A stretch of 64,000 nt of DNA. Origin: Zhongshania antarctica. Lineage in GTDB: Bacteria > Pseudomonadota > Gammaproteobacteria > Pseudomonadales > Spongiibacteraceae. The notes under the pieces were generated by a model, which searched no databases, had not been told where the DNA came from, and saw only the letters and a program-made list of their open reading frames with translations. The stretch is taken from contig NZ_JACHHW010000004.1 in the NCBI RefSeq assembly GCF_014202945.1, forward strand, positions 186,001 to 250,000, read 5' to 3'. This document shows positions 17,301 through 43,909 of this stretch, piece after piece (position 1 is the stretch's first letter; each line of letters opens with the position of its first letter). A program made the translations under genes and the position numbers.

Positions 17301-18263
17301 TTGCGGGCGCTGTGCGCCGAGCTTGCGGTGCAGGTGCAGCAGGGCATTGCTGAAGAGCGTGGTAGTGGCTTTGAAACCAAGGTGCTTACTAGCTGGGATT
17401 TTGATCGCTTGGAGTCTCGTTATGAATTTAAGCAGGGCGGAGCAACCTTGGTCGCTTATCCCTGTTTGCAGGATCAGGGCGAGAGTGTTGAGTTAAGTCT
17501 TGCCGAGACCGAGACCGAAGCTCGACAGGCAAATTTGCGCGGCGTTCAGCGCCTACTCTTATTGCGCTTGGTGCAGCAGTGCAAGAGCTTGCGGGCGAGC
17601 TTGTTTCGCAGCAACACGGCCCAATTACAATTGTCAGCGGTGGGTGAGCAAAAAAAGCGCTGGTTGGAAGATTGTCTGCTCGCTGCAAGCCAAAATTGCT
17701 TTGCTTTGACCGAGGATGCTTTGCCCCACACCCAGGTGGAATTTGAACAAGTTTGGGAGCGGGGCCGCGCTGGCTTTGTTGCCGATGCCGAGGCCTGTGC
17801 TGAGCTGTTAAATAAAATACTGGCCAATTACGCGGATATTCGTCGCAGCCTTAAAAAGCTGAATTCGCTTAGCTGGATCCATAGTATCAACGACATCAAC
17901 CGTCAGTTAGATGCCTTGTTTTTTGATGGCTTTATCACCGACCTCAGTCGCGATGAACTGGCGCAATACCCGCGTTATTTACAGGCAATTTCCCAGCGGA
18001 TTAGTAAACTGGACGGCGCTTATCAGCGAGATCGGCAGTCGACCTTGGTGCTTGAGCCGCTGCAGCAGCAATTTTCAGAGTTTGTTAAGAAGCTGCCAGA
18101 CAAACATCGTCGTCACCCGCTGGTAATGGATTATCGTTGGCAACTGGAGGAACTGCGCATTTCGCTGTTTGCTCAGAATATGGGCACCCGAACGCCGGTT
18201 TCGGAGAAGCGTTTAAAGGTTCTCTGGAAAGCCTTAGTGCAAGATGTAACATTATTGAATTGA
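14325..18263 (+). CDS. hrpA: ATP-dependent RNA helicase HrpA (DEAH box)
   Basis: Very large DEAH helicase, linked in E. coli to processing of fimbrial mRNA and to rescue of stalled ribosomes. Motifs include GETGSGKTTQIPK (motif I), TQPRRLAARAVA (Ia), DEAHERSLN (II), ITSATID (III), ATNVAETSLTVPG and QRAGRCGR (VI), followed by the ratchet and OB-fold regions and a long C-terminal DUF3418-type region ending at LFAQNMGTRTPVSEKRL. I choose the ATG at 14325 (MSETRSE..., 1,312 residues) because a longer frame to 14295 would begin inside the fadD terminator. E. coli HrpA has 1,300 residues. A monocistronic arrangement is likely. Confidence 0.95.
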   Translation: MSETRSEISSAAVAAVDPQSLMSQLESCLQADRFALGRACRQLLQQAAAGTDISQKLAVLVERFTVSQARVLQRRANLPTVAYPPDLPVSQRVDDIRAAIAAHQVVVVAGETGSGKTTQIPKICLAMGRGVTGLIAHTQPRRLAARAVAQRLAEELDTTLGDGVAFQIRFQEVSSPNSYIKLMTDGILLAAIQRDRFLSEYDTIIIDEAHERSLNIDFLLGYLKTLLPKRPDLKLIITSATIDVARFSEHFDNAPVIEVSGRSFPVEYRYRPQEELSADNDIGEAVEAVLRELIAEGAQRSGDTLVFLSGERDIRDVTRHLRKADLPGAEVLPLYSRLSTAEQQRIFELRGRRGWRVVLATNVAETSLTVPGIRYVIDGGTARISRYSVRSKVQRLPIEAISQASANQRAGRCGRVAAGIAYRLYSEADYLSRPVYTEPEIQRTNLAAVILQMLQLKLGDISAFPFVDAPDNKFVNDGFALLAELGAVRDGKLNKLGQQLGRFPVDPRIGRLLLAAADGGCLREMLIIASALSIQDPRDRPADKQQAADEKHRRFWQPDSDFMAFVGLWDYAEEQRQALSASQWRKLCQREFLSWTRMREWREVHHQITLMCRQLKLPVNREPADFDSIHRALLPGFLGQIACKDEEREYLGARNRKLRIFPGSSLFKKAPKWIVAAELAETTQLYARCVAKIDPEWVFGINDELLKRSYYEPHWHSRSGRVMAFEQTMLYGLLIRDKKRVHYGPISPVESREILIRQALVEGRYLGKAEFFRHNRKLIAEIGELEDKARRRDILISDDELFRYYDERIPDGIITAAHLESWLKTTAAPRTLFLSRGELMRHAGSDVTEEQFPDTLHCAGMILALSYHFEPNHPADGVSVSVPLANLPKLPEGRLEWLVPGLLRDKCIALLKNLPKAQRKQLVPVPDFVDKALPMLAVNDVGLLPSLADALRKISGLQIDVAEWSRNNIDNFYRMNIRVLDNAGKLLAQSRDLRALCAELAVQVQQGIAEERGSGFETKVLTSWDFDRLESRYEFKQGGATLVAYPCLQDQGESVELSLAETETEARQANLRGVQRLLLLRLVQQCKSLRASLFRSNTAQLQLSAVGEQKKRWLEDCLLAASQNCFALTEDALPHTQVEFEQVWERGRAGFVADAEACAELLNKILANYADIRRSLKKLNSLSWIHSINDINRQLDALFFDGFITDLSRDELAQYPRYLQAISQRISKLDGAYQRDRQSTLVLEPLQQQFSEFVKKLPDKHRRHPLVMDYRWQLEELRISLFAQNMGTRTPVSEKRLKVLWKALVQDVTLLN

Positions 18264-18388
18264 GCGCGTCTGTATTTTGCTAGATCGAATTCGACTAAAA
18301 CTGCGTATGAGTGGTGTTGGTTAAAACTGCTATGCTCATGTCGTTGTAGACGTAATAATTGCTTGCTGATCCGATATGGAGAATAACA

Positions 18389-18841
18389 ATGACCCAGAAA
18401 GCCTTTACCAAAAATCCAATGGCGGCTGCATTTGGCGCAGCGCTTTTGGTATCCGCAATGCACCCGGCGATGGCGGGTGAAAACCCTTTCGCGGCTAAAA
18501 CGATGGCGTCTGGCTACGAGTTGGCGATGGGCAATGCCGATAAGGCCGCCAAAGCAGAAGCTAAATGTGGCGCTGATAAGGCCGGTACTGAAGCGCAGTG
18601 TGGTGCCGACAAAGCCAAAGCGGCACATGAAGGCAAATGCGGCGAAGCAAAATGTGGGGCTGATGGCGCCAAAGCAGGGCATGAAGGTAAATGCGGAGAC
18701 GGTAAGTGTGGCGCTGAAAAAGCCAAAGCCGCGCATGAGGGCAAGTGTGGAGAAGCCAAATGCGGTGCCGATAAAAGCAAGGCGGCCACCGAGGGCAAAT
18801 GCGGTGAAGGTAAGTGTGGCGCCGGACACATGGCTAATTAG
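18389..18841 (+). CDS. hvfA: HvfA/BufA2-like Cys-rich RiPP precursor (EGKCG repeats), candidate copper-binding oxazolin/bufferin
   Basis: Precursor of a modified, probably metal-binding peptide. ATG at 18389 follows TGGAGA with normal spacing. Residues 1-29 form a Sec signal peptide ending MHPAMA, followed by ENPFAA, a segment I associate with bufferin/HvfA-like proteins. From residue 57 the protein is low complexity with ten cysteines (60, 71, 84, 89, 102, 107, 120, 125, 138, 143). Four 18-residue repeats start at residues 81, 99, 117 and 135, with the pattern EGKCG-x2-KCGA. EGKCG itself occurs five times. In Haemophilus HvfA the EGKCG cysteines are converted to oxazolone/thioamide copper ligands by HvfB-HvfC, and both partner genes follow here. 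Product modification is inference. Confidence 0.88.
18629..18841 (+). repeat. Coding tandem repeat, 54-nt units in the RiPP precursor
   Basis: Four in-frame copies starting at 18629, 18683, 18737 and 18791; the last is shortened by the stop codon. Each full copy encodes 18 residues beginning EGKCG and containing a second KCGA. Less regular half-copies precede them from about 18557. The DNA of the copies has diverged at third codon positions, indicating selection on the protein. Confidence 0.9.
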
Positions 18842-18885
18842 GGGCTTCATATCCAACAGGCGGTCAGTGTGAATGGGCGAGTCTC

Positions 18886-19740
18886 ATGAGTAAACAAACC
18901 AGTGCACTTGCGGGCTTGGGCTTGCGGCGCGGCTTAATGCCGGAGCTAAAATCTCTGGCAGGCAAGGAGCTGGATTTTCTTGAGGTCGCTCCTGAAAACT
19001 GGCTGCATATTGGCGGCCGCTTCGGCCGCTCATTTCGGGAGCTAGCAGCGCGCTACCCAATTTATTTACATGGTTTGTCTTTAAATATCGGTGGCTTCGC
19101 GCCACTCGATACCCGTTTATTAAGCGATATTAAACAATTTATGCGGGATTTTGACTGCCCTTTGTATTCAGAGCACCTGACCTATTGTGGTGATGAAGGT
19201 CAGCTTTATGATTTATTGCCCATTCCCTTTACGGAAGAGGCGGTACACCATGTGGCGGCGCGCGTTCGGCAAGTTCAGGATGTGTTAGGGCAGCGAATTT
19301 TATTGGAAAATGCCTCGTATTATGCGGCGCCAGGCCAAGCAATGTCTGAAAGCGAATTTATCAACGCGGTATTGGCCGAGGCCGACTGTGATTTGCTGCT
19401 TGATGTGAATAATGTTTTTGTGAATAGCGTAAATCACAATTACGATCCTTATCAGTTTTTGCGGTCCTTACCCTTGGCGAGAGCGCGTTATATTCATATT
19501 GCCGGACATTTTGATGAAGCTGAAGACTTGCGGGTGGACACCCATGGGGCTGATGTTATTGAGCCGGTGTGGGCCTTACTTGATGAGGCCTATCGACTCT
19601 GTGGGCCGCTGCCTACGTTATTAGAGCGGGATTTTAACTTCCCTGCGATGGCGGACTTACTGCAGGAAGTGCAGCAAATTCGTCGGGCACAAGCGAAGGT
19701 GGGTTTTGCCAGCGCCGTTACCAGTGGGTGCGCGGAGTAA
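18886..19740 (+). CDS. hvfB: DUF692 multi-iron RiPP maturase (HvfB/BufB/MbnB family)
   Basis: Predicted multi-iron TIM-barrel oxygenase that converts precursor cysteines, as MbnB does for methanobactin and HvfB for HvfA. The 284-residue protein has the family's metal-ligand segments: [82 protein letters not shown] and LLERDFNFP. The length is typical. It starts 44 bases after the precursor gene, and its TAA shares one base with the ATG of the next gene. The order precursor, DUF692, DUF2063 is the canonical minimal operon. Family membership is certain; the exact chemistry follows only by homology. Confidence 0.95.
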
Positions 19741-20477
19741 TGAAGCACTTTCAGCAAATCCAAGAGAGTATGACGCGCTTTGTACGCGACCCTGATACCT
19801 GTTCAGGCCCAGAAGGTATAGAAGCTCGGCGGATGGCGATTTACCGGGATCTGTTCTTTAATAATATTGAGGGCTTTCTCAGTAACGGATTTCCGGTGTG
19901 CCGAAGTTTATATTGCGACGAAGCATGGCATAGCATGGTGCGAGATTTTATGTGTCGTCACTGCTGCCAAAGTCCCTATTTTTTGCATATTGCTGAAGAG
20001 TTTCTCACTTATCTTAGTGAGGAGCGAGACTCACAAACTGATCCCGTGTTCTTGCGAGAGCTGGCCCATTATGAATGGGTGGAGCTGGCTTTAGATATTG
20101 CCGAACAAGAATTACCCCCCGCCGTGGCGGTTGAGGATGTACTTAAGGTTCGTTGGGCGGTATCGCCACTCGCGTGGTCTTTGGCTTACCAGTTTCCGGT
20201 TCAGCACATTAGTGGTGATTTTCAGCCTACAGCGCCGAGCGCTGAACCGACATTTATCGTGGTGTACCGAAACCGCCAAGACGAGGTGCAGTTTCTGGAA
20301 ATAAATCAGGTAACGGCGAGGTTGCTGAGCATTATCGTTGAGCGGCCAGAATTAAATGGTGCTGAAATTCTCGCTGAAATTGCCCATGAGTTGCACGTTG
20401 AGTACGCCTCAGTGGTCGGCTTTGGTAGTGAGATTTTAGCCCAGATGCGGGAACTGGATATTTTGCTGGTGAATTAG
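19740..20477 (+). CDS. hvfC: DUF2063 RiPP recognition partner (HvfC/BufC/MbnC-like)
   Basis: Partner that binds the precursor and the DUF692 enzyme to form the active modification complex. I use the ATG at 19740, which overlaps the preceding stop as TAATG and has GGAG just upstream; a GTG at 19728 would add four residues. The N-terminal DUF2063 part shows the usual RMAIYRDLFFNNIEGFLSNGFPVCRSL and FLTYLSEERDSQTDPVFLRELAHYEWVELAL. The C-terminal part is a second alpha/beta domain (FIVVYRNRQDEVQFLEIN followed by a helical end). No DoxX-like HvfD gene follows; the next gene is mlaA, with an 83-base gap. Confidence 0.92.
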   Translation: MKHFQQIQESMTRFVRDPDTCSGPEGIEARRMAIYRDLFFNNIEGFLSNGFPVCRSLYCDEAWHSMVRDFMCRHCCQSPYFLHIAEEFLTYLSEERDSQTDPVFLRELAHYEWVELALDIAEQELPPAVAVEDVLKVRWAVSPLAWSLAYQFPVQHISGDFQPTAPSAEPTFIVVYRNRQDEVQFLEINQVTARLLSIIVERPELNGAEILAEIAHELHVEYASVVGFGSEILAQMRELDILLVN

Positions 20478-20560
20478 TGGTAATAATCCAATTGGTGCCA
20501 ATTTCTGACCTATTAGGTATAGTATTGGCCGGTTTTAGACTTAAAGAGTGATTTGGGTAG

Positions 20561-21289
20561 ATGATGCCAATGCAACGAAAAGTCTGTGCTTTACTGATGT
20601 TGTTATCAGTACTGGGGGTGGCTGGGGTGAACGCAGAGAGTGACGGCGATCCCCGAGACCCTTGGGAAGGTTTCAATCGCGGGGTATTTGCTTTTAATAA
20701 TACGGCCGATGAATACTTGGTGCAGCCCGTTGCCCGAGGCTATCGCCAGGTTACGCCTGCAATTGTTGATCAAGGTATCGCCAATTTCTTTAATAATATT
20801 GGCGAAATCAAAAATATGGCCAATGATTTGTTGCAGGGTAAAGCCAGTGACGCGCTTGTGGATGGTGGTCGTTTTATTATTAATACTACCGTTGGGGTCA
20901 TCGGCTTTTTTGATGTGGCTAGCTATATTGGTTTAAAACGCGAATCTGAAGATTTTGGCCAAACAATGGCGGTGTGGGGTGTTGGGCCGGGGCCGTATTT
21001 GGTGCTGCCGTTTTTAGGACCGAGCAACCTCCGCGATGGTGCCGGTCAGGGCGTTGATTCCTATGTGTCAGTGACTGGCACGGTTGATCCCGAAGCGGCT
21101 CGCTACGGTATGAGCTTATTGGATTTACTGCAAGTTAGGGCGAGTTTATTGGGCACCGAAGGCCTTGTGTCGGGTGATAAATACACTTTTTTCAAAGATG
21201 CCTATCTACAGCGTAGAGAGTTCTTGATAAATGACGGTCAGCTCAAAGATGACTTTGGCGACGAAGACTTCGAGTCCTTCGACTTCTAA
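20561..21289 (+). CDS. mlaA: MlaA/VacJ family phospholipid-transport protein, apparently non-lipidated
   Basis: Outer-membrane component of the Mla pathway that removes misplaced phospholipids from the outer leaflet. Conserved segments include DPWEGFNRGVFAFNN, YLVQPVARGYRQVTP, FFNNIGEIKNMANDLLQGK, RFIINTTVGVIGFFDVAS and FGQTMAVWGVGPGPYLVLPFLGPSN. Unlike E. coli MlaA, the N-terminus (up to about residue 25) has no lipobox cysteine; the only nearby Cys is in the basic n-region. The sequence VNAESD looks like a signal-peptidase I site instead. Start could be 20561, 20564 or 20570. The C-terminus is acidic and ends in Phe (DEDFESFDF). Confidence 0.93.
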   Translation: MMPMQRKVCALLMLLSVLGVAGVNAESDGDPRDPWEGFNRGVFAFNNTADEYLVQPVARGYRQVTPAIVDQGIANFFNNIGEIKNMANDLLQGKASDALVDGGRFIINTTVGVIGFFDVASYIGLKRESEDFGQTMAVWGVGPGPYLVLPFLGPSNLRDGAGQGVDSYVSVTGTVDPEAARYGMSLLDLLQVRASLLGTEGLVSGDKYTFFKDAYLQRREFLINDGQLKDDFGDEDFESFDF

Positions 21290-37637: not shown

Positions 37638-38450
37638 ATGGATTTGAAACTCGTCAGCTTGGATGGCAACGAAGCCTACGCTATAGCAAGCGGATCGGTG
37701 GTTATCGGCCGTGATAATGACTGTGATATTACTATCGCCAAAGGCTTGCTATCTCGCCATCACGCTAAGTTAAGCTATATAGCCGGGGAGTGGATACTCG
37801 AAGATCTCGCCTCGACGAATGGCACCTGTGTTAACAATCGCTTATTAAAAAGGCCCGCTGCCGTTAAAGGTGGTGATGTTATTCGATTTGGCGAAGCGGC
37901 ATATTATCTAAAAAGTACCGCCGAAGAAGAGCGTACTATCGTCGCTGCGCGACTCCCTCAGAAAGATAACTTTAGCGGTGGCTCTGTTGTAATAGAAGAT
38001 GAGCCCGATAGTGAATTAACGTCATTTCAGCAATCCTACCAACTTCCCTCGGGATGGACCGATACTGCGATTCGCAGCACAAAGTATTCGAAGGACGCGG
38101 TAGATCAGCGAATTCAACGAGCGATTAGTGCAAAGCAAACCAGCACCGAAGTTGCGCTGGTGTTTTTCTTTGCCGATGGTCGCAGTTTAGTGTTTGGGGT
38201 GTCGGCTAAAAATGCAGATACTTTTTGGACTATTGGGCGTCAGGAAAACCTAAAGATAAGAATTGATGACCCAAGCGTATCGATGTTACATGCTAAATTA
38301 ATTCATAAAAGTGGCAGCTGGTGGCTGGAAGATATCGGCTCTACCAATGGTATTAGAGTTAATGGTGAAGCCAGTCCCAAAGTCGCGTTGCAAGACGGTC
38401 AATTACTTAGTCTGGGACGTATTGACATGGTGTTTCGTCAATTGGCGTGA
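37638..38450 (+). CDS. Double FHA-domain protein
   Basis: 270 residues with a forkhead-associated domain at each end. The first (about 3-95) shows VVIGRDNDCDITIAKGLLSRHHAKL and LASTNGTCVNN. The second (about 180-268) shows WTIGRQENLKIRIDDPSVSMLHAKL and IGSTNGIRVNG. FHA domains bind phosphothreonine peptides; both keep the Gly-Arg, Ser-x-x-His and Asn-Gly core, though Ser-x-x-His reads SMLH in the second. The middle is a variable linker. It is first in a five-gene, same-strand cluster whose last member is a Ser/Thr kinase, so it is the natural phospho-reader of that kinase (inference). There is no signal peptide, so it should be cytoplasmic. Confidence 0.93.
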   Translation: MDLKLVSLDGNEAYAIASGSVVIGRDNDCDITIAKGLLSRHHAKLSYIAGEWILEDLASTNGTCVNNRLLKRPAAVKGGDVIRFGEAAYYLKSTAEEERTIVAARLPQKDNFSGGSVVIEDEPDSELTSFQQSYQLPSGWTDTAIRSTKYSKDAVDQRIQRAISAKQTSTEVALVFFFADGRSLVFGVSAKNADTFWTIGRQENLKIRIDDPSVSMLHAKLIHKSGSWWLEDIGSTNGIRVNGEASPKVALQDGQLLSLGRIDMVFRQLA

Positions 38451-38521
38451 GTTTGTTTAGACGAAGTACTCGCCAGCAGACGCTCCGGCTCATCAAGGAT
38501 TAGATGACAGAGGCAGATCGT

Positions 38522-40165
38522 ATGAAAATACAATACGGGCTTGTTAGATTCAGTGTTGCAATCAGTGTGGCGATACTGGTGTCTTGCGCGGCGAACCAAG
38601 ATAGCCGCAGTGCGCAGTCGCCAGCTGTGAATACTGAAGAACTTATTGCTGGCTTGCAAATTGTTGACTGCCTGTTACCAGGTCAAATGCGCAAGCTTGG
38701 CAATATGACGTATTTGTCGCCGCGACGGCCCATAAAAACGACCGCAGCAGACTGCAATATTCGTGGCGGGGAGTATGTTGCCTACGATCGCGCCAACTAT
38801 AAAACAGCCTTAAAAATATGGCTACCAGCTGCAGAGCAGGGCGACGCAGAGGCGCAGTTGGCCGTCGGCGAGATTTTTGAGAAGGGCCTTGGCACTGAGC
38901 CAAATTATGAGGCCGCAGTGCTTTGGTACCAAAAGGCGGCTGCGCAAGGAAATAAAAGCGCACAATTTAATTTGGGAACAATGTACGAGCAGGGCCTCGG
39001 TGTTGAGAAAGATAAAATACAAGCCCTTAATTTATATCGCGATGCTTGGGGGCTACCTGACGATAGTGTGATTTTTCAAGACGCTGCACGCGCTGAACAA
39101 ATGGCCCTACGCAGTGAGCTGGAAAAGCAGTTGGCGAGTAAAAACAATCAACTCGCATTAATGGAGCGTCAGCTCAACGCACTTAAAATACAGTTAGCCG
39201 ATAATGATAAATCACCTAGTGTGGCTGGGGACGGCGCAAGCGAATTAGTGACGTTGGCGCAGTTGGTTCAGTCGCTCCAAGATGATCGCGCTAGCGTGGA
39301 GCGCCAACTTTCAACTATTCCCCGTTTGCGTACGCCCGCAACAACGCTCAAAGCCAGTCCCGCGTCGAACACGCTCGGCAGTGAAATTAAGTTGGCAGAC
39401 ATGGATTTTGGCCGCTATTACGCCTTAGTCATTGGTAATCGAAATTATGCCCAATTAGAGAACTTACAAACGCCATTAAATGACGCTCGAGAAGTGGGGG
39501 AAATACTCGAAAAACAATACGGTTTCCACGTTCAATTATTACTGGATAGCGACCGCTTAACCGTTATGAAAGCGATAAATGAGCTTCACAGCGTGCTGAC
39601 CGAAAATGACAATTTACTTATCTACTACGCAGGCCATGGTTCAATGATTAATATTGGCGAGCGCGATACTGGCTATTGGCTGCCGATTAATGCGGACCCG
39701 CCACCGAATGATGCTTCTTGGGTTTCCAATGAATTTATTAGTAATCATTTAGGTCGTATTCAGGCGAAGCGGGTTTTGGTCATTGCCGATTCTTGTTATG
39801 GCGGCTTGCTTTCTTCTGCACCGGGGCACTTGTTTTTTGGGCAAAGCGCCAGTTCGACAAACAGTGAATATATTAAATATAAGTTGCCACGCCGCTCGCG
39901 CTTATTATTGTCATCCGGTGGAGATAAGCCTGTTATTGATGAAGGCGGCGGGGATCATTCGGTGTTTGCCCAAGAACTAATCGATATCTTACGCAAAAAT
40001 AAAGGCGTGCTTTCTGCGCCGGATTTATATGCCAGCATACGCGGTCCGGTAAAAGTGCGCGCGGCGGCGAATCAGTTTGTTCAGGAGCCAGTTTATAAAA
40101 GTATAAAAGGGGCTGGGCACGAAGTAGGTGATTTTTTCTTTGTACCCAATAGCCTAGCGCAATAA
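38522..40165 (+). CDS. Sel1-repeat, caspase-like (C14) lipoprotein
   Basis: 547 residues from ATG 38522; an in-frame ATG at 38504 would spoil the signal peptide. The N-terminus ends in LVSC, a lipobox, so it should be a lipoprotein. Two Sel1-type repeats lie at about 95-170 (AEQGDAEAQLAVGEIFEKGLG and AAQGNKSAQFNLGTMYEQGLG). A coiled coil (about 195-230) follows. The C-terminal caspase-like domain (about 300-540) starts YYALVIGNRNYAQLENLQTPLNDAREV and has the dyad His372 (YYAGHGSM) and Cys425 (VIADSCYGG). An active protease is therefore expected in the envelope. It follows the FHA gene by 71 bases. Confidence 0.92.
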   Translation: MKIQYGLVRFSVAISVAILVSCAANQDSRSAQSPAVNTEELIAGLQIVDCLLPGQMRKLGNMTYLSPRRPIKTTAADCNIRGGEYVAYDRANYKTALKIWLPAAEQGDAEAQLAVGEIFEKGLGTEPNYEAAVLWYQKAAAQGNKSAQFNLGTMYEQGLGVEKDKIQALNLYRDAWGLPDDSVIFQDAARAEQMALRSELEKQLASKNNQLALMERQLNALKIQLADNDKSPSVAGDGASELVTLAQLVQSLQDDRASVERQLSTIPRLRTPATTLKASPASNTLGSEIKLADMDFGRYYALVIGNRNYAQLENLQTPLNDAREVGEILEKQYGFHVQLLLDSDRLTVMKAINELHSVLTENDNLLIYYAGHGSMINIGERDTGYWLPINADPPPNDASWVSNEFISNHLGRIQAKRVLVIADSCYGGLLSSAPGHLFFGQSASSTNSEYIKYKLPRRSRLLLSSGGDKPVIDEGGGDHSVFAQELIDILRKNKGVLSAPDLYASIRGPVKVRAAANQFVQEPVYKSIKGAGHEVGDFFFVPNSLAQ

Positions 40166-40248
40166 ACCCAAGGCGCTTGTCGGCATATCAGAGGCTGTTA
40201 CAACAATGTTAAATGGGTGGCAGCTTAGTTGGATAGGGAGATTTGCTA

Positions 40249-41523
40249 GTGAAAAATTTAACGCTAAACATGGAGTTTTTGCTGGTGCTGTTCGCCGCTT
40301 TAACGCTGGCCTTACCGGCGAGTGCAGCTGAAAATTGCCAAGCTCGCAAGCAAACTGATTCAAACTCGGAGAATCCGCCGCCACCCACGGGGGGCGTTGG
40401 CACGGGTGGTGAGTACGTAAGTTTTGAATCACCTACGGCAATAAGGGTCGCCGAAAGTGGAAACCCAGAACCGACTCCGACAGAATTAAATGATAGCTGT
40501 GGCGCCACGGTGACTGAGGGCAGTGCTAGTCAGGCGAAAGAATTAGCAATGACAGTTCTCAATAAAATTAATAATTTGCGATCCAAATCAGGCGATACTA
40601 ATCAGACAGCTGGTTTGAATTTTCTACATCTTGGTGGCGCGGCTGGTGCTGATAGTGCTGATAATGCGCTACTTGATGATAGTCGCCTGTCTTTGTTCAG
40701 CTTTACTGAATATACCAAACGGGATCGAGAGGCAACGGCCAGCAGCGGTGGTTATGATCAAGAGAGCAATGCGATAACCTTAGGCTTCGATTACCGAGTG
40801 GATAATGCAAGCTTTGCGGGCCTGTCGGTGAGTGTTAGTGATGGCGATAGTGATTTAGACAGCCATTTGGGTGGCAGTGAGGTGTCGTCGCTAATGTTGG
40901 GAAGCCACGGCGCTAAATATTGGGACAAACATTATATATCGGCGTTTCTCGCCTATGGGGCAATCGATATTGATGTGAATCGTAGCACTGCAAACGATAC
41001 ATTTTCGGCGTCAACAGAGGGTGATTATTGGTATGCTGATTTTACCTTAGGCGCTGATTATAACTACGGCCCACTGAGATTAAACCCCAGTGTGCGGGCC
41101 TTATATATGCGAGGTGAGGTGGACAGCTACACCGAGCGGTCTGCCTCCGGTAGTGGGGCTGTGCGCAGTGTTAATGCCCAAGATATTGACTCTACTGTTT
41201 TGAGTTTGGCTTTGCAGGCAGACTATTCCTTATTGCAGTCCTGGGGCGTGCTGTCGCCATCGGTGCGGGCTGAATTTAATTTTGATCAGGGTGATGCCTA
41301 TAAGACGAATGGTCAGACCTTGAATGATGCCGATAAGAGCTTCCTCGCGAGCATTTCTGATCAGTCCGACGAGCCGGATTCGAGTACCTTAGCGCTTTCC
41401 CTCGGTGTGTCTGCGCAATTTAAGTGCGGCTTGGCAGCCTATGCCGCTTATGAGCGTTTGTTAATGCATGACTATATGAATAAATATACCGCGACCTTAG
41501 GCTTACGCTTTGAATTACCTTAA
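40249..41523 (+). CDS. Autotransporter-type beta-barrel outer-membrane protein with short passenger region
   Basis: About 424 residues. I prefer the GTG at 40249, eight bases after AGGGAG, over a TTG at 40243. A signal peptide ends ALPASAAEN. A Cys/Pro-rich, presumably disordered stretch (about 25-95, with NPPPPTGG) follows, then an amphipathic helix (AKELAMTVLNKINNL). From about residue 145 to the end the pattern is that of an autotransporter beta domain: alternating strands such as FTEYTKRDRE, AITLGFDYRVD, YWYADFTLGADYNYG and the final YTATLGLRFELP. There is no large passenger, so it may act as a pore or anchor rather than a secreted protease. It lies between the caspase-like and hydrolase genes. 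Confidence 0.88.
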   Translation: MKNLTLNMEFLLVLFAALTLALPASAAENCQARKQTDSNSENPPPPTGGVGTGGEYVSFESPTAIRVAESGNPEPTPTELNDSCGATVTEGSASQAKELAMTVLNKINNLRSKSGDTNQTAGLNFLHLGGAAGADSADNALLDDSRLSLFSFTEYTKRDREATASSGGYDQESNAITLGFDYRVDNASFAGLSVSVSDGDSDLDSHLGGSEVSSLMLGSHGAKYWDKHYISAFLAYGAIDIDVNRSTANDTFSASTEGDYWYADFTLGADYNYGPLRLNPSVRALYMRGEVDSYTERSASGSGAVRSVNAQDIDSTVLSLALQADYSLLQSWGVLSPSVRAEFNFDQGDAYKTNGQTLNDADKSFLASISDQSDEPDSSTLALSLGVSAQFKCGLAAYAAYERLLMHDYMNKYTATLGLRFELP

Positions 41524-41549
41524 GGGTCTGGGGAATTAGTACTTTATCA

Positions 41550-42347
41550 GTGAATGCGCCTCGGCAAGGTTCAGTGTTCATTTTTGTTTGGATGTTAATG
41601 CTCGCTGCCTGTGCCACGCCGGCTCAACGTATTGACGTCACCGCAGAGCGTTTTGGTATGACGAAGCGGCTTATTGAAGGGCTGAACTTCCGTCATGTTA
41701 CTTACGCCAAGCCTCAGTCAACGACAACAAAAACACTGCATATTTATCTCGATGGTGATGGTAGTCCTTGGCTGCGCGGTCGATATATTGCCAGTGACCC
41801 GACGCCCAGAAACCCTTTAGTTTTAGGCTTGGCCAGTCTTGATACAGAGGCCGATGTCGTCTATTTGGGGCGGCCCTGCTATTTGGGCTTGCACGATGAG
41901 CCAATGTGCAACGAGAGGCTGTGGACGTCGGCGCGTTACAGTGCGGCGGTGGTGCGCAGTATGGCAGCCGCCGCGCAGGCCATGATAGCGGAGCGAGGTG
42001 CTAGCAGCGTCAGCTTGATTGGTTACAGTGGCGGCGGTAGCTTAGCAATGTTAATGCTCGCTCATATGGTATCGGTAGACGAGGTGATTACCGTGGCGGC
42101 GAACTTAGATACTGACGGATGGGCGAAACATCATGGGTATTTGCCTTTGAATGAATCGCTGAATCCTATGCTGTCTCATTATCCCAGGCATATCCGGTAT
42201 CGGCATTTTGCTGGTGAAAATGACGAGAATGTTCCGTCCCACCAGACACGGGCATTTATTGCTAGGCACGGCGGCGAACTAGTGCTGGTCCCGAACTTTA
42301 ACCATCGCTGCTGCTGGCGCGACCGGTGGCCAGATTTTGTCAAGTAG
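41550..42347 (+). CDS. Alpha/beta-hydrolase fold lipoprotein
   Basis: 265 residues, GTG start at 41550. The signal ends MLAAC, a lipobox with Cys21, so it is a predicted lipoprotein. The nucleophile elbow is SLIGYSGGGSLAM with Ser160; an acid (GENDENVPSHQ) and His (NFNHRCCW) lie at fitting places toward the C-terminus. LHIYLDGDGSPWL near residue 63 supplies the oxyanion-side strand. Two cysteine pairs (RPCYLG...EPMC and CC near the end) suggest disulfides, consistent with a periplasmic location. The substrate is unknown; esterase or thioesterase activity is the general expectation. It belongs to the FHA-caspase-barrel-kinase cluster. Confidence 0.85.
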   Translation: MNAPRQGSVFIFVWMLMLAACATPAQRIDVTAERFGMTKRLIEGLNFRHVTYAKPQSTTTKTLHIYLDGDGSPWLRGRYIASDPTPRNPLVLGLASLDTEADVVYLGRPCYLGLHDEPMCNERLWTSARYSAAVVRSMAAAAQAMIAERGASSVSLIGYSGGGSLAMLMLAHMVSVDEVITVAANLDTDGWAKHHGYLPLNESLNPMLSHYPRHIRYRHFAGENDENVPSHQTRAFIARHGGELVLVPNFNHRCCWRDRWPDFVK

Positions 42348-42406
42348 TAGTGGGCCCGTTTACGCCGTTTCAATGGCAATTGGGGTGTCGGTGCTAAGGA
42401 TTGAAA

Positions 42407-43909
42407 ATGAGTGAACAGGACAAAACCCGTGTCAGTACCCTGGTTTCCCCAGCGTGCGATGACGACGCAACACGAGTATCTTTTGACGCAAAAGGTACTG
42501 AACTGGTATCGCCTCGCGGTGAAGGGGCTGCTGGCGTCGACGCGAACAACGATAAGACAGCCGTGGTAAACGATGAAGCGACCCAGCTAAGTGATGCCAC
42601 TGAGCTGGGTAGTAAGGCGGGCGATAATACCGCTTTTTTTATTGATGAGGGGGGCTCCAATGGGGCGGGCCAGGCCGTGGGCTTTGATGTTGGTAGCGTG
42701 CTCAAAGATCGGTTTCGCCTTGAAAAAAAGCTGGGTGAGGGTGGTATGGGGGCCGTGTTTCTCGCTGTCGATGAGCGCAAGTTAGAGGCCAAGCACAAGG
42801 ACCCTTATGTGGCGATAAAACTGATCGCCGGTGACTTTTCGCAAGACCCGCTCGCCTATATTGCGCTGCAGCGCGAGACCGATAAGTCACAAAAGCTCGC
42901 TCACCCCAATATTATTACGGTTTACGATTTTGATCGTGACGGTGATGTGTTCTTCATGACCATGGAGGCATTAAAGGGCCGCACGCTTGATGAAATCATC
43001 AATGATAGAGCGCATTGCCAGCGTCATGCACGTAGCTATATTGAGGCGCTCGCGCAAGGGATTGCCTATGCTCACAAACGCAATATAGTGCATTCGGATC
43101 TTAAACCCGCCAATATTTTTGTCACCGATGAAGGCGTTATAAAAGTATTGGATTTTGGTATAGCGCGTGCCTTATACGGGGGCGGAGATGATATTGGTGA
43201 GGTTGTCGGTCTGACACCAGGCTACGCAAGCTGTGAAATGTTTGCTGCGGCGCCACCGCACACCTCAGACGATGTCTATGCGATAGGGATCATTGCCTAC
43301 CAGTTGTATACCGGCGAGCACCCGTTTGCTAAGAAAAAGGCCACCCTCGCGCGTGATCAAGGCTTAAAGCCAAAGCGAATCAAAGGTATTCCACTTTATC
43401 AGTGGCAGGCCATAAACAGTGCCTTGGCCTTTGACCGAGACGCGCGCTGTCCCGATGCGGGGCAATTTTATCGGCAATTTAGTGGCGCCGGACGGCGAGT
43501 AAAGCAGCTTAGCGTTGCGCTGTTAGTCGTCGTGCTGTCGGCAATTGCTTTCTTTGCCGTGTATGAACCGGAAATCGGGCCTGATATCCCCTTTAGCGAG
43601 TTACCGGTCGCGGTGCAGCAACAGTTGACATCACATTTAGCTGAAGCCGATTTAGCATTGAAGTTTGGCGATATTAACGGTGCGCTGCACTACCTAGATC
43701 GGGCCTATGTGCTGCATCCGCACAACCGCGAAGTAATGAAAAAGCTAGACCGTTTAGTTGCGGCGATGAGCGCAGCGATTATCGCTGCGTCAGCAGAGCC
43801 AAAGCAGCGAGTTCAGCAAATAGATGAGCTTTTGAAGTACGAGTCTTTGGCCCAGAACCCGGAGTTGCTAGGCCTGAAAAAATCCTTACTTAGCCCTCAA
43901 TCTCAGTAA
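42407..43909 (+). CDS. Membrane-anchored Ser/Thr protein kinase (Hanks type)
   Basis: 500 residues from the ATG at 42407, six bases after AAGGA; a TTG at 42401 is less likely. Residues 1-95 are a Thr/Asp-rich tail (TRVSTLV, ATRVSF, DKTAVV, EATQLSD). The kinase domain (about 108-360) has the Gly loop [10 protein letters not shown], Lys138 (VAIKLIAG), the catalytic loop [10 protein letters not shown] with Asp231 (HSD instead of HRD) and DFG with Asp249. A single membrane helix follows at about 368-388 ([16 protein letters not shown]). The periplasmic part (about 110 residues) is a helical, TPR-like region. It overlaps cysK by 20 bases, convergently. Catalytic residues are intact, so activity is expected. 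Confidence 0.95.

Follow-up and report, generated by a model that had tools for sequence, protein, structure and literature searches.

The hvfABC operon

The window analysed here is a 64,000-nucleotide stretch of the Zhongshania antarctica genome (contig NZ_JACHHW010000004.1, positions 186,001 to 250,000 of the forward strand). As shown in Table 1, it contains three genes in the same direction, hvfA, hvfB and hvfC, for a Cys-rich precursor, a multinuclear non-heme iron-dependent oxidative enzyme (MNIO) and its partner protein. From its gene families this is a captophorin/oxazolin-type operon for a ribosomally synthesized and post-translationally modified peptide (RiPP), a kind already known. 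A sequence-only reading of the window had placed an HvfABC-type operon at 18389-20477, with DUF692 and DUF2063 genes after the precursor, the coordinates were confirmed, and the Pfam and NCBIfam matches agree with the families. Here the operon is described together with a satellite locus on another contig, which carries a second precursor gene and a candidate regulator.

Table 1. Features of the hvfABC region, in positions of the window.
Feature	Position	Strand	Evidence
Extracytoplasmic function (ECF)-type promoter-like site TGTAAC-N16-CGTC	18245..18270	+	Uniqueness in own genome, position in relatives, spacing control
hvfA, EGKCG-repeat RiPP precursor, 150 residues, 10 Cys, secreted (putative)	18389..18841	+	NF050137 87.7 bits (cut-off 19.5), Cys spacing, leader signature
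hvfB, MNIO (DUF692), 284 residues	18886..19740	+	NF003818 424.8 bits (cut-off 360), PF05114 337.9 bits, sole MNIO found in the genome
hvfC, DUF2063/NGO1945_C partner, RiPP recognition element (RRE)-type, 245 residues	19740..20477	+	NF050145 308.9 bits (cut-off 142), 3DEE match
mlaA, conserved neighbour outside the system	20561..21289	+	PF04333 247.3 bits, synteny

The Cys residues of HvfA lie in five EGKCG, three EAKCG, one DGKCG and one EAQCG motif, at spacings of 11, 13, 5, 13, 5, 13, 5, 13 and 5. They form two single-Cys units followed by four 18-residue double-Cys units. The ten Cys and five EGKCG motifs had been counted correctly in the sequence-only reading, and the signal peptide that it named is visible by eye as a Sec-type one, with a basic start and a 16-residue stretch ahead of GENPF. 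The repeat domain passed the NF050137 model 'KCGExKCG_twice', and no Pfam family matched HvfA at E up to 1. Modification of EAKCG is known from a 14-residue peptide of FonA (PMC13097082), and the EAQCG variant was not met in the consulted parts of the descriptions of related systems. The hvfA gene lies directly 5′ of the MNIO gene, as expected for Buf_EGKCG-oxazolin/captophorin operons. A long open frame opposite hvfA (18173-18856, minus strand) is probably a by-product of the repeats.

HvfB passed the model of the HvfB group of MNIOs; its Pfam family is MbnB_TglH_ChrH and its solved relative is 3BWW (E 1.1e-75). Methanobactin membership was rejected, as HvfB scored 51.4 bits against the MbnB-type model TIGR04159 (cut-off 325), and so was bufferin membership, with 265.7 bits against the BufB equivalog NF050167 (cut-off 310) and no DUF2282 precursor. 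Residues R14, R15, D249 and F250 were invariant across 13 aligned HvfB proteins of the family group defined below. They correspond to R15, R16, D249 and F250 of FonB, which were matched by motif and numbering, FonB being outside the alignment; the Arg-Arg, Asp and Phe residues of FonB are described as substrate contacts and catalytic base (PMC13097082). HvfC, whose gene shares one base with the end of hvfB, matched the Pfam families DUF2063 and NGO1945_C (PF09836, PF22106), and its solved relative is 3DEE (E 1.2e-9).

The satellite locus and a shared promoter-like sequence

Genome searches found one MNIO gene in the own genome, that of the operon. A second EGKCG precursor, HvfA2, was found on another contig (C2; stretch L032, C2:26000-40000). 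It has 108 residues and 8 Cys, in four EGKCG and four EAKCG motifs with a period of 16. Its gene is divergent from hvfX, which encodes the DoxX-like protein HvfX (225.3 bits against the HvfX model, cut-off 80) and is followed by the gene of an ECF sigma factor and then by an anti-sigma gene (NF052368, 55.9 bits, cut-off 50). The sequence-only reading had reported that a DoxX-like hvfD gene is missing. None follows hvfC in the same operon, as it would in the HvfABCX layout of the Haemophilus kind, but HvfX is present at the satellite locus.

Both precursors of the genome carry a leader signature, NPF-x(n)-GY, which spans 12 residues in HvfA. Of 88 precursor-like frames taken from family loci and named loci, 71 have the form NPF-x(2-9)-[GS]Y just past the signal peptide; some of the named loci come from genomes that are also in the family group, and truncated or spurious frames were counted as misses. 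The signature may be a docking site for HvfC.

Relatives were compared in a family group of 21 genomes including the own one (G000); the comparison covered both strands of 44 stretches at and near these loci, 580,942 bp in total. Handles used below include G017 (Zhongshania sp., L158), G010 (Spongiibacter marinus, L187) and G014 (Spongiibacter pelagi, L164). All 17 satellite loci encode, after the ECF sigma gene, a protein with the zinc-associated anti-sigma (ZAS) pattern Cys4 + His30-x3-Cys34-x2-Cys37; HvfX is adjacent in 16 of them and a precursor in 14. Elsewhere in the own genome (L033 3342-4199, G000:C6) there is a further member of the HvfX family, extended by a long C-terminal tail; its gene lies beside genes that by eye resemble moeB, prmC and prfA, with no precursor in reach. 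A second HvfX match above the cut-off was seen in 16/21 genomes.

The operon and the satellite locus share the sequence TGTAAC-N16-CGTC. In the 3.85-Mb own genome the exact sequence occurs twice, before hvfA and before the satellite hvfX, and the same pattern read backwards occurs eight times. In the 44 stretches all 27 exact sites precede hvfX, hvfA or hvfB: 16 stand before the satellite hvfX genes (16/16), and the other 11 belong to operon loci (11/20), where they precede hvfA or, in loci that lack it, stand immediately ahead of hvfB. The remaining 9/20 operon loci have the site with one mismatch. When the spacing was varied from 8 to 26, every other spacing gave 0-3 sites, and a Markov-1 control gave a mean of 0.55 and a maximum of 2 over 20 rounds.

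At the operon locus the gene order hrpA-[hvfA]-hvfB-hvfC was found in 20/21 genomes, with mlaA next in 19/20 (exception G013). The two precursors are distributed differently. Ten of the 21 genomes have precursors at both loci, and six have one at the operon locus only (G001, G002, G003, G013, G014, G019), of which G001, G002 and G003 have no satellite locus. In four genomes (G010, G011, G015, G018) the precursor is found at the satellite only, and their operon loci lack hvfA (4/20). In G020 the ECF sigma gene, hvfA, hvfB, hvfC and hvfX form one cluster. The precursor of G018 was missed by NF050137 and was recovered when frames were scanned for three or more occurrences of [KQRS]CG.

A single MNIO was found in 18/21 genomes, including the satellite-only G010, G015 and G018, while the fourth satellite-only genome, G011, has a second MNIO on another contig. 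The only precursor and the only MNIO are separated along the contig by about 2.3 Mb in G018 and 0.96 Mb in G015. When a tree was built from HrpA, HvfB and HvfC with FastTree, the genomes with both precursors, ten in all, formed one clade, and the satellite-only and operon-only genomes were interleaved. This topology is consistent with a two-precursor ancestor from which either copy was lost repeatedly; transfer is also possible.

The candidate split system and its alternatives

We consider that the operon probably belongs to a captophorin (thiooxazole metallophore) system that is split in two, has two precursors and is likely under one ECF sigma factor. We infer the following course. In the cytoplasm HvfB and HvfC would oxidise Cys residues within the EGKCG-like repeats, probably forming 5-thiooxazoles, with HvfA from the operon and HvfA2 from the satellite as their two substrates. 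After export through Sec, both modified peptides would bind Cu(I) in the periplasm, and perhaps other soft metals as well. Thiol- or zinc-directed stress would inactivate the ZAS anti-sigma factor, and the freed sigma factor would act at TGTAAC-N16-CGTC promoters to transcribe both the hvfX-sigma-antisigma genes, which include its own, and hvfABC. A weaker variant of this promoter would serve hvfA2. HvfX would act as the DoxX-like membrane partner. A ZAS anti-sigma factor would fit a signal that acts on thiols or zinc, such as an oxidant, better than a dedicated copper sensor.

A more specific proposal is tentative, and our opinion leans slightly against it: the sigma factor and its ZAS anti-sigma factor could form a dedicated circuit, with the captophorin genes at the two unlinked loci as its only direct targets in the own genome and the anti-sigma factor sensing a stress that the peptides relieve. 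One MNIO would then serve two precursors which differ in repeat period (18 and 16), in dose and in linkage, one being next to HvfX, with reciprocal loss of the precursors in sister lineages.

The nature of the product has one unlikely alternative, in which the modified Cys residues are oxazolone/thioamide groups, or the peptide serves a purpose other than copper, such as scavenging hypochlorite-type oxidants. Oxazolone/thioamide ligands were the original assignment for oxazolin, recounted in PMC13419390, and were also assumed in the sequence-only reading. That assignment is superseded: the HvfBC product was reassigned to a 5-thiooxazole (PMC13419390), and nuclear magnetic resonance of alkylated products gave 5-thiooxazoles in three EGKCG pathways, those of fontiphorin, oxazolin and gonophorin (PMC13097082). 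Since both structures correspond to a loss of four hydrogens per Cys, the mass shift of -4 Da proposed as a test cannot by itself separate them. With regard to purpose, the doxX (hvf) cluster of H. influenzae is, like msrAB, under the control of RpoE2, whose anti-sigma factor is HrsE, and the expression of rpoE2 is raised by HOCl and H2O2 (PMC7907618). Proteomics did not detect the Microbulbifer proteins MmrA-C, whether copper was added or not, and the authors were hesitant on copper protection (PMC12538549). On the other side, Cu(I) binding was demonstrated for relatives (PMC12538549, PMC13097082). The earlier proposal of a peptide with several copper ligands is supported through membership in the family, apart from its chemistry, and protection against copper by the operon product is plausible.

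Several observations weigh against a split system under one sigma factor. HvfA did not reach the 95-bit cut-off of the HvfA equivalog NF050188 (55 bits; HvfA2 64.2 bits). A site with one mismatch was found for only 7 of the 14 satellite precursors. No such site stands before hvfA of the single-cluster G020 or before hvfX of G001 and G002, and G001-G003 contain only distant ECF relatives (44% identity), away from hvfX. The 21 whole genomes contain 98 exact sites, 27 at hvf genes and 71 elsewhere, and the backwards pattern is commoner (334 vs 98), indicating that the site is not over-represented as such and that its position is what matters. Named loci were also compared, as the best 80 named hvfB loci among the matches listed; a site was counted if it had no more than one mismatch and lay in the 400 bp ahead of the precursor or hvfB. 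The site was found in 11 of these 80. Both hrpA and mlaA are present in 23 of them, and the site is absent from 18 of the 23, including those of Microbulbifer, Halieaceae and the Spongiibacteraceae metagenome-assembled genome (MAG) L161. Finally, the -35 part of the site overlaps the 3′ end of hrpA in 16/20 operon loci, where the last hrpA codons often read DVT (the hrpA stop of G005 was taken from the end of the open reading frame). Coding constraint could therefore explain some of the conservation of the site. In the window the -35 part lies in the final codons of the hrpA-like gene, whose stop ends at 18263, and the -10 part just past the stop.

This overlap would be the ground for supposing that the site at the operon reflects coding conservation of the HrpA C-terminus (..DVT..), that another promoter drives hvfABC and that only the hvfX-sigma-antisigma genes are autoregulated. 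We regard this as improbable, because the CGTC part lies beyond the hrpA stop at a fixed spacing, and because the sites of G018 (exact) and G001-G003 (one mismatch) lie 54-193 bp past that stop. The 18 named hrpA+mlaA loci without the site also argue against coding conservation; the five with it are all contigs of family genomes already counted. As for another promoter, two sigma-70-like sites were found in 18150-20700, the number expected from shuffles, and neither stands before hvfA.

It is equally improbable that the operon is an ordinary stand-alone captophorin operon as in Microbulbifer and that the satellite locus is an unrelated paralogous remnant with partners of its own: minimal A-B-C clusters without DoxX do function in E. 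coli, as with fontiphorin (PMC13097082) and bulbicupramide (PMC12538549), and the hrpA-hvfABC-mlaA arrangement of Microbulbifer and Halieaceae does without the site, but the own genome gave no second MNIO, the same rare sequence marks both loci, and in G010, G015 and G018 the satellite precursor is the sole precursor found and the operon MNIO the sole MNIO found.

The split system would mean that a precursor and the MNIO that matures it can be encoded about 1-2 Mb apart on the chromosome, as suggested by G015 and G018, and it is a warning that mining of gene neighbourhoods overlooks such precursors and HvfX. The natural trigger of EGKCG clusters and the role of the DoxX-like partner are standing questions of the field, and the cluster type is common. 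Now that a candidate regulator can be named, along with a promoter-like sequence and the genes marked by that sequence, the trigger becomes directly testable.

Neighbouring genes and known systems

The mlaA gene follows hvfC after a gap of 83 bp, as the sequence-only reading had noted. Among named loci it stands beside hvfABC in Spongiibacteraceae, Halieaceae, Microbulbifer, Porticoccus, Exilibacterium and others, mostly followed by rssB/rssC-like genes. It keeps this place across genera, yet its gap to hvfC varies, and it was rejected as a functional part of the system and taken as a syntenic neighbour. In Alcanivorax nanhaiticus (L224) the row is hvfA-hvfB-hvfC-hvfX-mlaA, with HvfX between hvfC and mlaA, which suggests an earlier place for HvfX inside the operon, beside mlaA. 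MlaA is usually a lipoprotein; in contrast, the signal peptide of the MlaA-like protein of the window has no Cys at the lipobox position (..VAGVNAESDG..), and the protein scored below the cut-off of the NCBIfam MlaA equivalog (145.5 vs 375). Elsewhere in the window (37638-43909), look-alikes of an FHA-domain protein, a repeat protein with a caspase-like domain, an outer-membrane barrel-like protein and a Ser/Thr kinase adjoin, as judged by eye from the list of open reading frames.

ECF relatives were counted at E up to 1e-40 in 293 genomes of the order. They were found in 60 genomes, and 47 of these do not belong to the family. Nineteen of these neighbourhoods were inspected over about 1.5 kb to either side, and a general linkage of ECF and hvf genes across the order was not supported, as HvfX adjoins in only one (L253). 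L253, from another family, has an exact TGTAAC-N16-CGTC before the adjacent hvfX and a second exact site within the ECF gene. L240, also from another family, has an exact site before the ECF gene and no hvf genes in reach. In two other gammaproteobacterial loci (L220 and L226, one of them a Methylophaga MAG) hvfB was found without an adjacent precursor, and a similar site stands 60-66 bp before hvfB with 10 and 9 of 10 positions; these are possibly further split systems. The single hvfB locus of a Thiogranum MAG (L230) is surrounded by more than one frame rich in Cys motifs.

The bufferins (Buf1 with DUF2282, and Buf2) resemble the present system in Sec export, modified Cys and a link to copper. 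They differ in the precursor family, and their anti-sigma factors are of the NrsF type, not the ZAS type found here. Sigma factors may occur in Buf1 clusters, not in Buf2 clusters; the same paper mentions stand-alone and tandem precursors and collected about 2,000 EGKCG precursors (PMC12452194). Fontiphorin from Fontimonas thermophila (fonABC) shares the 10-residue repeats, the minimal A-B-C operon and the Arg-Arg and Asp-Phe motif residues; it differs in having seven modification sites, and the available part of its description gives no satellite locus (PMC13097082). Bulbicupramide (mmrABC) of Microbulbifer shares the EGKCG precursor, MNIO, DUF2063 protein and NPF..GY leader signature, and Microbulbifer loci have the same hrpA-hvfABC-mlaA-rssBC context. 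Its precursors were reported to have five to eight Cys, compared with ten in HvfA (PMC12538549). Of five Microbulbifer loci, L170, L173, L175 and L177 extend sufficiently upstream, and none of these four has a site with one mismatch or fewer in the 400 bp ahead of the precursor or hvfB; L178 ends inside the precursor. This ECF promoter as the answer to the expression puzzle of Microbulbifer is thus unsupported.

Among the matches listed, which were mostly non-subscription literature and main texts, we found no description of an EGKCG system spread over two loci with two precursors and one sigma factor. A word search of a paper on a Spongiibacter strain gave nothing relevant. The operon is a known system, correctly recognised, in a new layout, and ECF control of such clusters has precedents. 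In nontypeable H. influenzae the oxazolin system HvfABCX has the same EGKCG precursor type, HvfB, HvfC and HvfX (PMC7907618, PMC13419390), and RpoE2 controls it from a separate locus with the small anti-sigma factor HrsE (PMC7907618). In that species a single operon with one precursor contains the hvf genes, whereas two loci and two precursors are found here; RpoE2 also controls msrAB and other repair genes, while the own genome has no further exact site.

In N. meningitidis the sigmaE operon NMB2140-NMB2145, which corresponds to the ngo/gonophorin cluster of N. gonorrhoeae, likewise unites an ECF sigma factor, a ZAS anti-sigma factor and a DoxX-like gene in one regulon. It differs in being a single operon that includes the sigma and anti-sigma genes, and in a regulon that also has msrA/msrB. 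In meningococci oxidative stimuli left sigmaE expression unchanged. The anti-sigmaE protein NMB2145 has Cys4, His30, Cys34 and Cys37, the same positions as the satellite anti-sigma factor. The Neisseria sigmaE promoter (-35 GTMAGBWTT, -10 CGTCTAAH, spacer 12-13) resembles the GTAACAWT/CGTC found here: the fifth -35 base is C here and G in Neisseria, and the G that opens GTAAC lies 21 bases from the C that opens CGTC, compared with 21-22 in Neisseria (PMC2893595).

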